Made by a program: the position numbers and the translations under genes. This document shows positions 42,486-46,294 of a stretch of 64,000 nucleotides of DNA, piece after piece. The DNA comes from Frankiales bacterium (lineage in GTDB: Bacteria > Actinomycetota > Actinomycetes > S36-B12 > CAIYMF01), in assembly GCA_016125335.1 (NCBI GenBank), contig WGLY01000002.1, positions 62,001 to 126,000 on the forward strand, given 5' to 3'. Below the pieces are notes generated by a model, which worked only from the letters and a program-made list of their open reading frames with translations, made no database searches and was not told where the DNA came from. Positions within the stretch are counted from its first letter, which is position 1; every line of letters begins with the position of its first letter.

Positions 42486-42550
42486 GGACTGACCTCTCTC
42501 GTGGCGGCGATCCCCGCGGAGCCTAGCCCTCGTGGCGCCGCCGTCCCGGA

Positions 42551-42556
42551 TAGGGT
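42551..42556 (+). promoter_or_regulatory. -10 element TAGGGT for the aldo/keto reductase gene
   Basis: TAGGGT ends eight bases before the ATG at 42565. Confidence 0.5.
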
Positions 42557-42564
42557 CTCGCGCC

Positions 42565-43542
42565 ATGGAGCAGCGTCCCCTCGGCCGGTCGGGCCTGCAC
42601 GTCTCCCGGCTCGCGCTCGGCACGATGACCTGGGGCCGCGACACCGACCGGCACGAGGCCCGCGACCAGCTGCTCGCCTTCCTCGAGGCCGGCGGCACGC
42701 TGGTCGACACCGCGGACGTCTACGCCGACGGCATGTCCGAGGAGGTCCTCGGCGCGCTGCTCGACGAGGTGGGCCGCGACGCGGTCGTGGTCGCCACCAA
42801 GGCCGTCTCCCGCCCGGGGACGGCCCGGCGCCTCGACGCCTCGCGCGGGCACCTGCTCGCTGCCCTCGACGCCTCGCTGCGCCGGCTGCGGGTCGACCAC
42901 GTCGACCTCTGGCAGCTGCACGCCTTCGACCCGGCGACACCCCTCGAGGAGACCCTCTCGGCGCTCGACGCCGCGGTGCGCTCGGGCAAGGTGCGCTACG
43001 TCGGCGTCTCCAACTACTCGGGGTGGCAGACCGCCAAGGCCGCCGCGCTGCAGGCGGCGCGCTCGCACGCGGCGCCGCTCGTCAGCACGCAGGTCGAGTA
43101 CTCCCTGCTCCAGCGCGGGATCGAGCGCGAGGTCGTCGACGCGGCGGCGGACGCGGGCCTCGGGATCCTGCCGTGGTCGCCACTGGGCCGCGGCGTCCTC
43201 ACGGGCAAGTACCGGCACGGCACGCCGGCCGACTCGCGCGCGGCCTCCTCGCACTTCGCGCGGTTCGTCTCCCCCTATCTGGACGACACCTCGCGCAGCG
43301 TCGTCGACGCCGTCTGCACCGCCGCCGAGGGGCTCGGCGTGGCGCCCCTCGAGGTGGCCCTGGCGTGGGTGCGCGACCGCCCCGGGGTCGTCGCGCCGAT
43401 CCTCGGGGCGCGCACCGCGGCCCAGCTGCGGGGCGCGCTCACGGTGGAGGAGCTCGAGCTGCCCGACGAGATCGTCACGGCGCTCGAGGACGTCTCCGCG
43501 CCGGCCCTGGGCTACCCCGACCACCCCGGGGCGTCGCGCTGA
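42565..43542 (+). CDS. aldo/keto reductase
   Basis: A 325-residue (alpha/beta)8 NADPH-dependent oxidoreductase. The AKR signature starts with LGRSGLHVSRLALGTMTWG; catalytic Asp and Tyr are in LVDTADVYADG, Lys in VATKAVSR, and the later region has HVDLWQLHAFD. The cofactor part is GILPWSPLGRGVLTGKY and GARTAAQLRGAL. It would reduce aldehydes or ketones, or act on a Kv-beta-like substrate. The ATG is preferred over upstream codons because it starts the conserved domain and has the -10 element at the right distance. It leads directly into the RecD-like gene, with 8 bases between. Confidence 0.94.
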   Translation: MEQRPLGRSGLHVSRLALGTMTWGRDTDRHEARDQLLAFLEAGGTLVDTADVYADGMSEEVLGALLDEVGRDAVVVATKAVSRPGTARRLDASRGHLLAALDASLRRLRVDHVDLWQLHAFDPATPLEETLSALDAAVRSGKVRYVGVSNYSGWQTAKAAALQAARSHAAPLVSTQVEYSLLQRGIEREVVDAAADAGLGILPWSPLGRGVLTGKYRHGTPADSRAASSHFARFVSPYLDDTSRSVVDAVCTAAEGLGVAPLEVALAWVRDRPGVVAPILGARTAAQLRGALTVEELELPDEIVTALEDVSAPALGYPDHPGASR

Positions 43543-43550
43543 ACGCCGCC

Positions 43551-44555
43551 GTGGAGCTCCTGCTCGCCGCCTCGGCAGCGGGTCACACCGTGCTGCCCTA
43601 CGAGATCGTCACCCGCCTCTGCCCGGCGGACGCCGTCGGCGACGCGATCGACGCCGGCGAGGTCACCGAGCTCCCGTGGCGCGGGGCCCGGGCCGTGGCC
43701 CTGACCGACCTCGCCGAGGACGAGGAGCTGCTGGCCGAGGGGCTCGCCGCGCTCGCCGCGGAGAACCGCCTCGCGGTCGTCACCGGCTCGCAGCCGCAGG
43801 CGCGTCGCCGGAAGCTGGACGCCGCCCTGCCGCCCGGGATGCCGTGCGTGGTCCTCGACGACGCGCACCTCACCACGGTGGAGGACGCGGCGGCCGCCGT
43901 GGAGGACCTGCCCGAGGACGCCGTCCTGGCGTTCTCGCTCGACCACGCGCTGCCCCTCGGGCCGGGCCCGGGGGCGGTGGCGCTCGACCTGGCGGCCTCC
44001 GGCGTGTGCCCCGTGCTGCGCGCCGACGAGAGCCCCGGCCCGCGGCTGCTCGACCAGGCGCGCGAGGAGGTCGCCGCCGGGCGCTGGCCCTCCGGCGAGG
44101 GCGCCGGCGAGGACCGGTCGTGGGTGACGGTGCCGGTCGCCTCGCCGGACGAGGCCGTCCGGCGCGTTCACCAGCTGCTCACGACGTCGATCCCCCGCGC
44201 GTTCGGCGTGCCCGCCGCCGAGGTGGGCGTGCTGCTGGCCGAGGGCGCGCTCGAGCCCGCGCAGGTCGTCGACGGCCTGGACGGGACCCCGCCGCAGGTG
44301 GTGCCGCTCGCGGGTGTGCCGGCCCAGGCCTGGCGCGCCGTGGTGATCGTGCTGCCCGGCAGCGCCCCCGCCTCGCTCACCCGCGCCGTGCTCTACGCCG
44401 GGATGCGCGCCGGCACGGAGCACGTCAGCGTGGTGCACGGCATGGGCACCGCTGCGCTGACCCAGCTCGTGGCGGGCACGACCGACCGGCCCCGCCGCAC
44501 CCGGCTGGTCGAGCTGCTGCACTGGGCGAGCGGGGCCGGCCCGGCCCTGGTCTGA
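43551..44555 (+). CDS. degenerate RecD2-like protein, predicted pseudo-helicase
   Basis: A 334-residue protein whose order of segments follows RecD-type superfamily 1 helicases but whose motifs are eroded. Residues 1-65 resemble the RecD2 N-terminal winged-helix region (TVLPYEIVTRLCP ... VALTDLAEDEELLAEGL). RLAVVTGSQPQARRRKL stands where RecD has its Walker A (GGPGTGKTT). VVLDDAHLTT replaces DEAxM, and LDHALPLGPGPGAVALDLAASG matches the RecD GDxxQLPxVGPG-VLxDL motif without its Asp/Gln. The C-terminal AQAWRAVVIVLPGSAPASLTRAVLYAGMRAGTEHVSVV resembles UvrD_C_2 with the TRA motif lost. It should not hydrolyse ATP. The GTG at 43551 is the first usable start; it follows the aldo/keto reductase gene by 8 bases. 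Confidence 0.65.
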   Translation: MELLLAASAAGHTVLPYEIVTRLCPADAVGDAIDAGEVTELPWRGARAVALTDLAEDEELLAEGLAALAAENRLAVVTGSQPQARRRKLDAALPPGMPCVVLDDAHLTTVEDAAAAVEDLPEDAVLAFSLDHALPLGPGPGAVALDLAASGVCPVLRADESPGPRLLDQAREEVAAGRWPSGEGAGEDRSWVTVPVASPDEAVRRVHQLLTTSIPRAFGVPAAEVGVLLAEGALEPAQVVDGLDGTPPQVVPLAGVPAQAWRAVVIVLPGSAPASLTRAVLYAGMRAGTEHVSVVHGMGTAALTQLVAGTTDRPRRTRLVELLHWASGAGPALV

Positions 44556-44625
44556 GGCACGATTGCGACCTCGCACCGGGAGGGTCTCGCCCTGCCCAGG
44601 GCGGCCCGGGCGCACAATGTCGCGC

Positions 44626-44826
44626 ATGACGGCGGCCCGGAGCTCCACCTGGGAGTACCGCGACATCACCCTGCCCCGGGGCACCCCGCGCGACGCCGCC
44701 CGGGCCGCCCTCGTCGAGCTGGCCGAGCACGGCTCGTGGGAGCTGGCCCGGCTGCGCCTCTACCCGGACGGTCGCCGCCGCGTGCGGCTGCGCCGCCGCG
44801 TGCTCCGCGCGGTGCGCACGGCCTGA
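44626..44826 (+). CDS. small DUF5703-family protein
   Basis: A 66-residue basic protein. It has TWEYRDITLPRGTPRDAARAALVELAEHGSWELARLRLYPDGRRRVRLRR (in part), which matches the short actinobacterial DUF5703 family: a conserved WEYR opening, an amphipathic helix, and an LxLYPDGxRxVxLRRR end. Cytosolic, function unknown. The ATG at 44626 is used; an in-frame ATG at 44617 would add MSR. CACAAT seven bases upstream may act as a -10 element. It follows the RecD-like gene by 70 bases and converges with the M20 peptidase gene. Confidence 0.75.
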   Translation: MTAARSSTWEYRDITLPRGTPRDAARAALVELAEHGSWELARLRLYPDGRRRVRLRRRVLRAVRTA

Positions 44827-44851: not shown

Positions 44852-46201
44852 TCACACGGCGCGCAGGAAGCGCCCGAGCACCCGGGTGCCGAAGTGCAGC
44901 GCGTCCACCGGCACGCGCTCGTCGACGCCGTGGAACAGCGCGCCGAAGTTGAGCGCCGGGGGCAGCCGCAGCGGCGCGAAGCCGTAGCAGCGGATGCCCA
45001 GGGTGGAGAACGCCTTCGCGTCCGTGCCGCCGGAGAGCATGTAGGGCACCGGCACGGCGTGCTCGTCCTCCGCGCGCAGCGCCGCCGCCATGAGGTCGAT
45101 GCTCGGGCCGTCGAAGGTGGTCTCCACGGCGATGTCCTGGTGCACGAACTCCCGGACGACGCCCTCCCCGAGGGCGGCGTCCACAGCGGCCCACATCTCG
45201 TCCTCGTGCCCCGGCAGGTACCGGGCGTCGACGTGCGCCTCGGCCTCGCCGGGGATGACGTTCACCTTGTAGCCGGCGGAGAGCATCGTGGGGTTCACCG
45301 TGTTCTTCAGCGTCGCCCCGACCAGCGTGGCCATGGGACCGAGCTTGGCCAGGGTCGCGTCCATGTCGTCGGGGTCGAGGTCGGCCCCGGTCGCCTCGGA
45401 GAGCACGGCGAGGAAGTCGCGCACCGCCGGCGTGACGTGCACCGGCAGGTCGAGCCGGCCGAGCCGGGCGACCGTCTCGCACAGGGCCGTGACGCTGTTG
45501 TCGTCGTTGAGCATGGACCCGTGGCCGGCGCGCCCCGTGGCGCGCAGGCGCAGCCAGCCGATGCCCTTCTCCGCCGTCTGCACCAGGTAGAGCCGCAGGT
45601 CGTCGCGGACGGTCAGGGAGAACCCGCCCACCTCGCCGACGGCCTCGGTCACGCCCTCGAACATCTCGGGTGTGTGCTCGACCAGCCAGTGGGAGCCGAT
45701 CTCCCCACCCGCCTCCTCGTCGGGCAGGAAGTTCACCACGATGTCGCGCTCCGGCACGATCCCGGCCCGCGCCCACGAGCGGACGACGGCCAGGGTCATG
45801 CCGCACATGTCCTTCATGTCCACGGCCCCACGGCCCCAGACCATGGGCACGCCCAGGTCGTCGTCGACCTCCGCGGCGAAGGGCGGCCGCGACCAGTCCT
45901 CGGCGCGGGCGGGCACGACGTCTAGGTGCCCGTGCACCATGAGCGCGCCGCGGGAGGCATCGCGGCCGGGGATGCGGACGACGACGCCGTCGCGCCGGGG
46001 CCCGCACGAGTACCGCTGCGGGTCCAGTCCCACCTCGCGCAGGCGGCCCTCGACGTACTCCGCGGCCTCCGCCTCGCCCGGCCCGGAGCCGTCGCCGTAG
46101 TTCGACGTGTCGATCCGGATCAGGTCGCGGACCAGCTCGACCACCTCGGCCTCTGCGTCCGGGAGCGGTGCGGGCAGCGCGGCGGCGGTGGTCTCGGTCA
46201 C
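44852..46201 (-). CDS. M20-family metallopeptidase
   Basis: A 449-residue di-zinc hydrolase of the M20/ArgE/DapE/CPG2 family. Metal ligands and catalytic residues are in LMVHGHLDVVPA, WGRGAVDMKDM, LPDEEAGG and the C-terminal GALFHGVDERVP. A dimerisation domain (about 210-330) contains GRAGHGSMLNDDNS. It removes N-terminal or N-acyl groups from small substrates; specificity is not readable. The start was chosen as GTG at 46201, which begins VTETTAAALP, because CAGGAT lies six bases upstream and the longer frame would nearly touch the tRNA gene. It is divergent from tRNA-Leu. Confidence 0.92.
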   Translation of the reverse strand: MTETTAAALPAPLPDAEAEVVELVRDLIRIDTSNYGDGSGPGEAEAAEYVEGRLREVGLDPQRYSCGPRRDGVVVRIPGRDASRGALMVHGHLDVVPARAEDWSRPPFAAEVDDDLGVPMVWGRGAVDMKDMCGMTLAVVRSWARAGIVPERDIVVNFLPDEEAGGEIGSHWLVEHTPEMFEGVTEAVGEVGGFSLTVRDDLRLYLVQTAEKGIGWLRLRATGRAGHGSMLNDDNSVTALCETVARLGRLDLPVHVTPAVRDFLAVLSEATGADLDPDDMDATLAKLGPMATLVGATLKNTVNPTMLSAGYKVNVIPGEAEAHVDARYLPGHEDEMWAAVDAALGEGVVREFVHQDIAVETTFDGPSIDLMAAALRAEDEHAVPVPYMLSGGTDAKAFSTLGIRCYGFAPLRLPPALNFGALFHGVDERVPVDALHFGTRVLGRFLRAV

Positions 46202-46207
46202 CCGGCC

Positions 46208-46213
46208 ATCCTG
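46208..46213 (-). promoter_or_regulatory. -10-like element CAGGAT for the M20 peptidase gene (leaderless)
   Basis: CAGGAT on the minus strand is followed by GGCCGG and the GTG at 46201. The same hexamer and spacing precede the ABC-F gene at 63108. Confidence 0.4.
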
Positions 46214-46252
46214 GCGCAGGTCGTCGGTTTCGTCCCGCGTCGGGGACGGTTG

Positions 46253-46258
46253 TATGCT
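46253..46258 (+). promoter_or_regulatory. -10 element TATGCT for tRNA-Leu
   Basis: TATGCT lies 37 bases before the mature tRNA 5' end, compatible with a short 5' leader removed by RNase P. Confidence 0.45.
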
Positions 46259-46294
46259 CTGCGGGTCGTCCGGCGAGGTGATCGCCGTGCGCAC

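Follow-up and report, generated by a model that had tools for sequence, protein, structure and literature searches.

A half-length RecD2 derivative without recognisable ATPase motifs in a conserved gene slot of Actinomycetes

RecD2 is a 5'-3' helicase of superfamily 1B (TIGR01448; PDB 3e1s, 3gp8 and 3gpl), in which motif Ia and the SH3 domain contribute to the grip on single-stranded DNA. Elsewhere, helicase folds are found that do no motor work: RecC carries a dead helicase domain with a recognition role. PriA of Deinococcus radiodurans belongs to another helicase superfamily, SF2, and is not cut to half size. This bacterial helicase homologue is reported to be a pseudohelicase (PMC4504706), and another report describes the helicase-like domain of AddAB as a dead helicase domain with a recognition role (PMC4824097). 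RecD2 itself has been found typical of genomes without RecBC, including two Streptomyces genomes then sequenced (PMC1193525).

We analyzed a window of 64,000 nucleotides from a Frankiales bacterium (contig WGLY01000002.1, positions 62,001 to 126,000), which encodes a small relative of these proteins. The protein resembles RecD2 in its descent, in its segment order and in having a winged helix and two RecA-like cores, and it further shares with RecD2-like helicases found in the same gene slot of other genomes a SIPR block and a basic C-terminal tail. It differs from RecD2 in being about half as long and in lacking the HHH domain, motif Ia, the SH3 (2B) domain, Walker A, the conserved catalytic Glu and the motif VI Arg. 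With RecC and AddB it would have in common an SF1 helicase fold that is dead and serves recognition in place of motor work, but those proteins belong to a stable helicase-nuclease complex in which a partner supplies a live motor, whereas the window protein has no known partner of this kind. Our main reading, to which we assign a probability of roughly 0.7, is that it derives from RecD2, is ATPase-dead and has been retained for a role other than that of a motor. The original prediction, made from the same stretch of DNA, had proposed a retained pseudo-enzyme, and this proposal is supported by the eroded motifs that ten relatives share and by purifying selection on the gene.

The gene lies on the + strand, as do all features below unless stated otherwise. 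Directly ahead of it, as had been predicted, is an aldo/keto reductase (AKR) gene (42532-43542; PF00248, 6.5e-68), and it is followed by a gene for a DUF5703 protein (44626-44826; PF18963, 5e-22) and, convergent on the - strand, one for an M20 family peptidase that ends the slot (44852-46294; PF01546, 7.6e-27). The AKR gene is directly upstream in every relative whose contig covers that side, with DUF5703 and the convergent M20 peptidase gene downstream. This order is common to intact helicases and to short dead forms in the slot; the long dead forms are AKR-adjacent. At L062:1030-3456 (order member G022) the slot is occupied instead by a large, unrelated ORF of about 800 aa, phosphoketolase-like by eye.

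A 334-residue frame at 43551-44555 had been proposed for the gene. From GTG 43551 it reads open throughout, and that part of the claim stands; its start probably does not. In the relatives, where checked, the homologous start is a 4-bp ATGA, GTGA or CTGA overlapping the AKR stop, with CTGA prevailing in the window's genus and present also in L128 and L102, and ATGA or GTGA in L129, L113, L108, L126 and others; two further relatives begin at the homologous place with ATGAGC (L008) and GTGAGC (L010). Because the relatives start in this way at the AKR stop, the real start here is probably CTG 43539, which forms a CTGA overlap of 4 bp with that stop (43539-43542) and gives a protein of 338 aa encoded at 43539-44555, stop included. 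A GGAG-type sequence precedes the CTG by 6-7 bases in several relatives, and in L003 neither the 60 bases ahead of the CTG nor the 50 behind it contain an ATG, GTG or TTG in frame. A conserved non-standard CTG start codon at the AKR/pseudo-helicase overlap appears likely, and the overlap of start and stop suggests that translation is coupled to that of the AKR gene. The opposite strand carries an antisense ORF of 390 aa (43512-44684, - strand) that spans the whole gene and is a by-product of the 75% G+C.

Taken alone, the window protein matches no Pfam or NCBIfam family above cut-off, as is also true of other single members of the ten; it gives no match to TIGR01448, membership of which takes more than 500 bits, and a phmmer search with it against the PDB returned only CTCF (E 0.25). 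Comparison of profiles is far more informative. When the ten short relatives were aligned by hhalign with five intact RecD2-like helicases from the slot, the match had E 1e-30 over 324 columns; with the intermediate short forms it had E 5.6e-49, both values referring to a single comparison and not to a database search. In the former alignment long gaps in the short form fall at the N-terminal, Walker A/Ia and SH3 stretches of the helicases. Four intermediates match TIGR01448 directly (L017, 2.5e-27; L020, 3.5e-22; L011, 3e-18; L018, 5.6e-11), and the profile of the ten-member alignment (A1) has a sole match in the PDB, RecD of RecBCD (1w36_D, E 0.0075), in the UvrD_C_2 region. The long proteins of the slot contain HHH_RecD2, AAA_30, SH3_13 and UvrD_C_2 domains; the intact forms reach 423-442 bits against TIGR01448, one of those used for hhalign scoring 438, all below its curated cut-off of 500, and their profile matches PDB 3e1s at E 2e-86. 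The predicted RecD-like order of segments is borne out by the 324-column alignment and by a joint alignment with the intact forms, and common descent with the RecD2 of TIGR01448 follows from the hhalign comparison (E 1e-30). The gene is a positional homologue of an RecD2-like SF1B helicase, and we regard its descent from RecD2 as virtually certain.

It could be argued that the gene has nothing to do with RecD2 and either encodes an orphan protein or is a chance frame lying across from the antisense ORF at 43512-44684, given that its ten members fall into no Pfam or NCBIfam family above cut-off, that the 390-aa antisense frame exists and that the window protein alone shows a weak match to Smr (PF01713; E 0.0025, 18.4 bits). 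That match is below the gathering cut-off of 25.7 bits and recurs in none of nine relatives, and the hint of Smr/MutS2 was dropped. The three codon positions of the + frame mismatch at 0.28, 0.26 and 0.52, an excess at the third that marks this frame, rather than the antisense ORF, as the coding one. Nor is the gene a product of chance, given relatives at 46-58% identity in other genomes. Since hhalign, the intermediates that match TIGR01448, the shared slot and the fold search all lead to RecD2, a lack of relationship is very improbable and at the homology level is already refuted.

The fold search used an AlphaFold2 model built from five sequences (mean pLDDT 69.9), with values of 80-93 for residues 1-130 and lower ones beyond, the C-terminal half being poor (31-57 from residue 261 on). 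Crystal structures of RecD2 were its best matches: the top PDB entries in Foldseek were 3gp8 (E 6e-6) and 3e1s (E 7e-6), both at probability 1.00, and VIA-align gave Z 8.5-8.8 to 3e1s, 3gpl and 3gp8 over model residues 1-165, middling scores that by that program's own note may arise by chance but that here place three RecD2 entries in the lead, with TraI and RecD next. Residues 1-165 align with 222-491 of 3e1s, and for this part the predicted model has the fold of RecD2, the C-terminal half being too uncertain to judge. The first 57 residues (43539-43709) form the N-terminal winged helix that in RecD2 precedes the ATPase core, modeled as H-H-H-E-E at pLDDT 80-93.

The losses from the catalytic core had been read off correctly in the original prediction, which named GSQPQARRRK, LDD, LDHALPL and a missing TRA in place of the ATPase motifs; their positions match the joint alignment. 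Comparing the window protein with an intact helicase (L032), TVLHGGPGTGKSRTVAAVV of the latter faces AVVTGSQPQARRRKLDAAL, VVVDEAS faces VVLDDAH, VGDPAQLPSIGPG faces SLDHALPLGPGPG and YTALTRAQRHLSIVH faces YAGMRAGTEHVSVVH. In the joint alignment the former Walker A (motif I; 43785-43814) reads GSQPQARRRK, with Arg at the Lys position and the glycines gone. The former Walker B (motif II; 43848-43868, in both A1 and the joint alignment) reads VVLDDAH; its first Asp is invariant in the close group, and the position of the catalytic Glu is D, E or N. The motif III region, VLAFSLDHALPLGPGPGAVALDLAASGVCPVL from GDPAQLPSIGPGRVLGDVLDSG (43923-44018, joint alignment), has lost its Gly and has an Asp and ALPL that are invariant in ten close relatives. 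In the UvrD_C_2 remnant (motifs V-VI; 44325-44441), placed by hhalign, the joint alignment and the match of A1 to 1w36_D, VHRAQGSEWP is lost and YTALTRAQ has become YAGMRAGT, without the motif VI Arg. Across the short forms, GxxGxGK[ST] is missing in all 19, as are the motif Ia and SH3 (2B) stretch, which is deleted, and the HHH domain; HHH_RecD2 and SH3_13 are present in the intact L032 and L098, SH3_13 under Pfam's own cut-off. We consider it almost certain, judging from these residues, that the protein is ATPase-dead.

What has been kept is equally consistent. It comprises the winged helix, the Walker B Asp (in close relatives), the backbone of motif III, a QLxxxSIPRAF block, an HxSxV strand and a tail of the form RPRRTRLxxLL. 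The best kept block, SPDEAVRRVHQLLTTSIPRAFG (44142-44207, joint alignment), is shared with the intact helicases and marks the start of domain 2A, and the basic C-terminal tail, DRPRRTRLVELL (44484-44519; A1 and joint alignment), is found in intact forms too and is nearly invariant in A1.

The degenerate motifs are common to all ten close relatives, and the gene has an omega far below 1. Pairwise codon models gave omega 0.036-0.12 for the usable pairs (0.02-0.06 for AKR), and likelihood-ratio tests against omega 1 yielded statistics of 104-239. Most dS values exceed 2, near or past saturation, which makes the omega values rough while neutrality is firmly rejected, and two pairs with dS near 80 (window-L007 and L006-L008) were unusable. 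Omega of 0.04-0.12 with statistics above 100 indicates that this is not a recent wreck, and we hold it very likely that the gene is retained by purifying selection.

Retention is not universal. Nine of the 11 genomes of the window's genus carry the gene, counting its own, and so does a single genome from a different genus of the same family, these relatives being 46-58% identical to the window protein; a 37% relative is found in another family of the order. A class-wide search with that relative returned short and long proteins in 156 of 394 genomes. No RecD2-like match was seen in any of 40 further slots read in the order, or in 21 of 40 slots read in the class (two more were cut by contig ends), and scanning the gaps in L100, L110, L115-L117 and other slots with the short-form profile disclosed no hidden members. 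Since most slots of the order and two genomes of the genus itself do without the gene, it is dispensable. Elsewhere in the window's own genome there is no RecD2 match above the family cut-off. The gene also evolves faster than its neighbours: its copies are about 52-59% identical to the window gene, whereas AKR from these same genomes stands at 80-88%.

Empty order slots, the two genomes of the genus without the gene and fast protein evolution would suit a slowly dying gene, a useless shrunken helicase whose frame survives only for want of time to decay or thanks to a start shielded by the AKR overlap. Such a gene would not be expected to show omega far below 1 and statistics above 100 in every pair tested with synonymous sites near saturation, nor length conserved and blocks invariant to the very C-terminus in ten species, nor a short form that is old and spread over six families. 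The selection test already largely refutes slow death, and we judge it quite unlikely.

The slot itself records how the present form may have arisen. Nine of the proteins read from it have intact Walker motifs (L032, L036, L042, L098, L101, L118, L126, L127 and L132), the intact helicases being of 620 aa. Others are of full length without Walker motifs: L108, L109, L111 and L112, and each of the nine proteins that could be recovered when 20 more slots were searched, of which f24 supplied eight and f22 one. In f24, one large single-genus family with genomes of 6-11 Mb, every copy read (L108, L109, L141-L143, L146, L149, L152, L156 and L160) is without Walker A and has a HTGGEAARAEPA-type sequence instead, with an HTGGEA-type sequence where the P-loop was. 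These full-length proteins of f24 and f22 resemble the window protein in adjoining the same AKR gene and in having lost Walker A, and differ in their length of 575-820 aa and in still possessing HHH_RecD2 and the segments between motifs. Short Walker-less forms come from six families: the window's genus with L010 (f1), L011 (f3), L113 (f11), L018 and L102 (f26), L024, L130 and L131 (f34), and L017 and L020 (f36). In L011 the sequence GPAGRGRT is a P-loop with Lys changed to Arg, and L017 has GPQGAVRD, yet YTAVTRA is still there.

In a tree from which the motif I columns were left out, the 19 short forms make up one side of a branch with support 100/99 and all Walker-less forms, long and short, one side at 83/88, values to be read with the caution that fast-evolving rows can attract each other and that L113 is a long branch. 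The latter support makes a single loss of the Walker motifs in long and short dead forms possible, and the short form is, as the tree has it, one old group. The loss thus reads as one in stages within a single slot: intact, full-length dead, half-length dead and empty. The original prediction had held that orthologues with intact Walker motifs would mark this copy as just decaying; intact ones exist, but in other lineages, and because the short motif-less form is one old, well-supported group, decay does not fit. What is new here is that the window protein does not stand alone: it marks the short end of a helicase's disarmament, old and graded, within one slot. A literature search for actinobacterial proteins that resemble RecD2 but lack the Walker motifs brought up nothing relevant, which is weak evidence with subscription journals mostly outside its scope. 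The series of intact, full-length dead, half-length dead and missing genes in one slot is a natural one on what a helicase fold is worth without ATP, and RecD-like or HHH-containing annotations in these bacteria may not mean helicases.

In an old actinobacterial lineage, a RecD2-like SF1B helicase has lost the Walker A lysine and other catalytic residues. Missing too are HHH at the N-terminus, the segment with motif Ia and the 2B (SH3) domain; there remain a winged helix, two RecA-like cores in shrunken form, the SIPRAF block and a basic tail at the C-terminus. As for the role itself, which we infer to be structural or regulatory, we can offer a rough proposal. The resulting protein would hydrolyse no ATP and unwind no DNA. 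It would instead be a rigid adaptor, with the winged helix and residual core surface binding nucleic acid or a former partner of RecD2. The conserved parts, namely winged helix, SIPRAF block and basic tail, offer surfaces to which DNA or a partner could bind. The loss of motif Ia and SH3 argues against a simple clamp on single-stranded DNA, and the dead helicase domains with recognition roles in RecC/AddB and the PriA pseudohelicase favour an adaptor. Even so, this ATP-independent pseudo-helicase scaffold is a tentative proposal, one we would rather bet against than on.

Alternatively, the protein might be a DNA-binding regulator, perhaps of the AKR operon, with an active winged helix and a dead core that serves as a dimerisation or ligand-sensing body. 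Residues 1-57 do match MarR-type winged helices (Z about 4-6), and the gene overlaps AKR, but a winged helix is an ordinary part of RecD2 too (3e1s, in the same rows) and the best conserved blocks lie outside it, which leaves a regulator of this kind unlikely. On the broadest form of our main reading, that of a retained non-motor derivative, these ATPase-dead SF1B helicases would make up a family of their own, ancient and as yet unnamed, whose translation follows on from the end of the AKR gene and which carries out an ATP-independent cellular task across much of Actinomycetes, possibly in all members of the largest genus; we think this conceivable, at somewhat under even odds. Shared translation may be all that connects the gene with AKR, and the AKR gene directly precedes intact, dead and empty slots alike.
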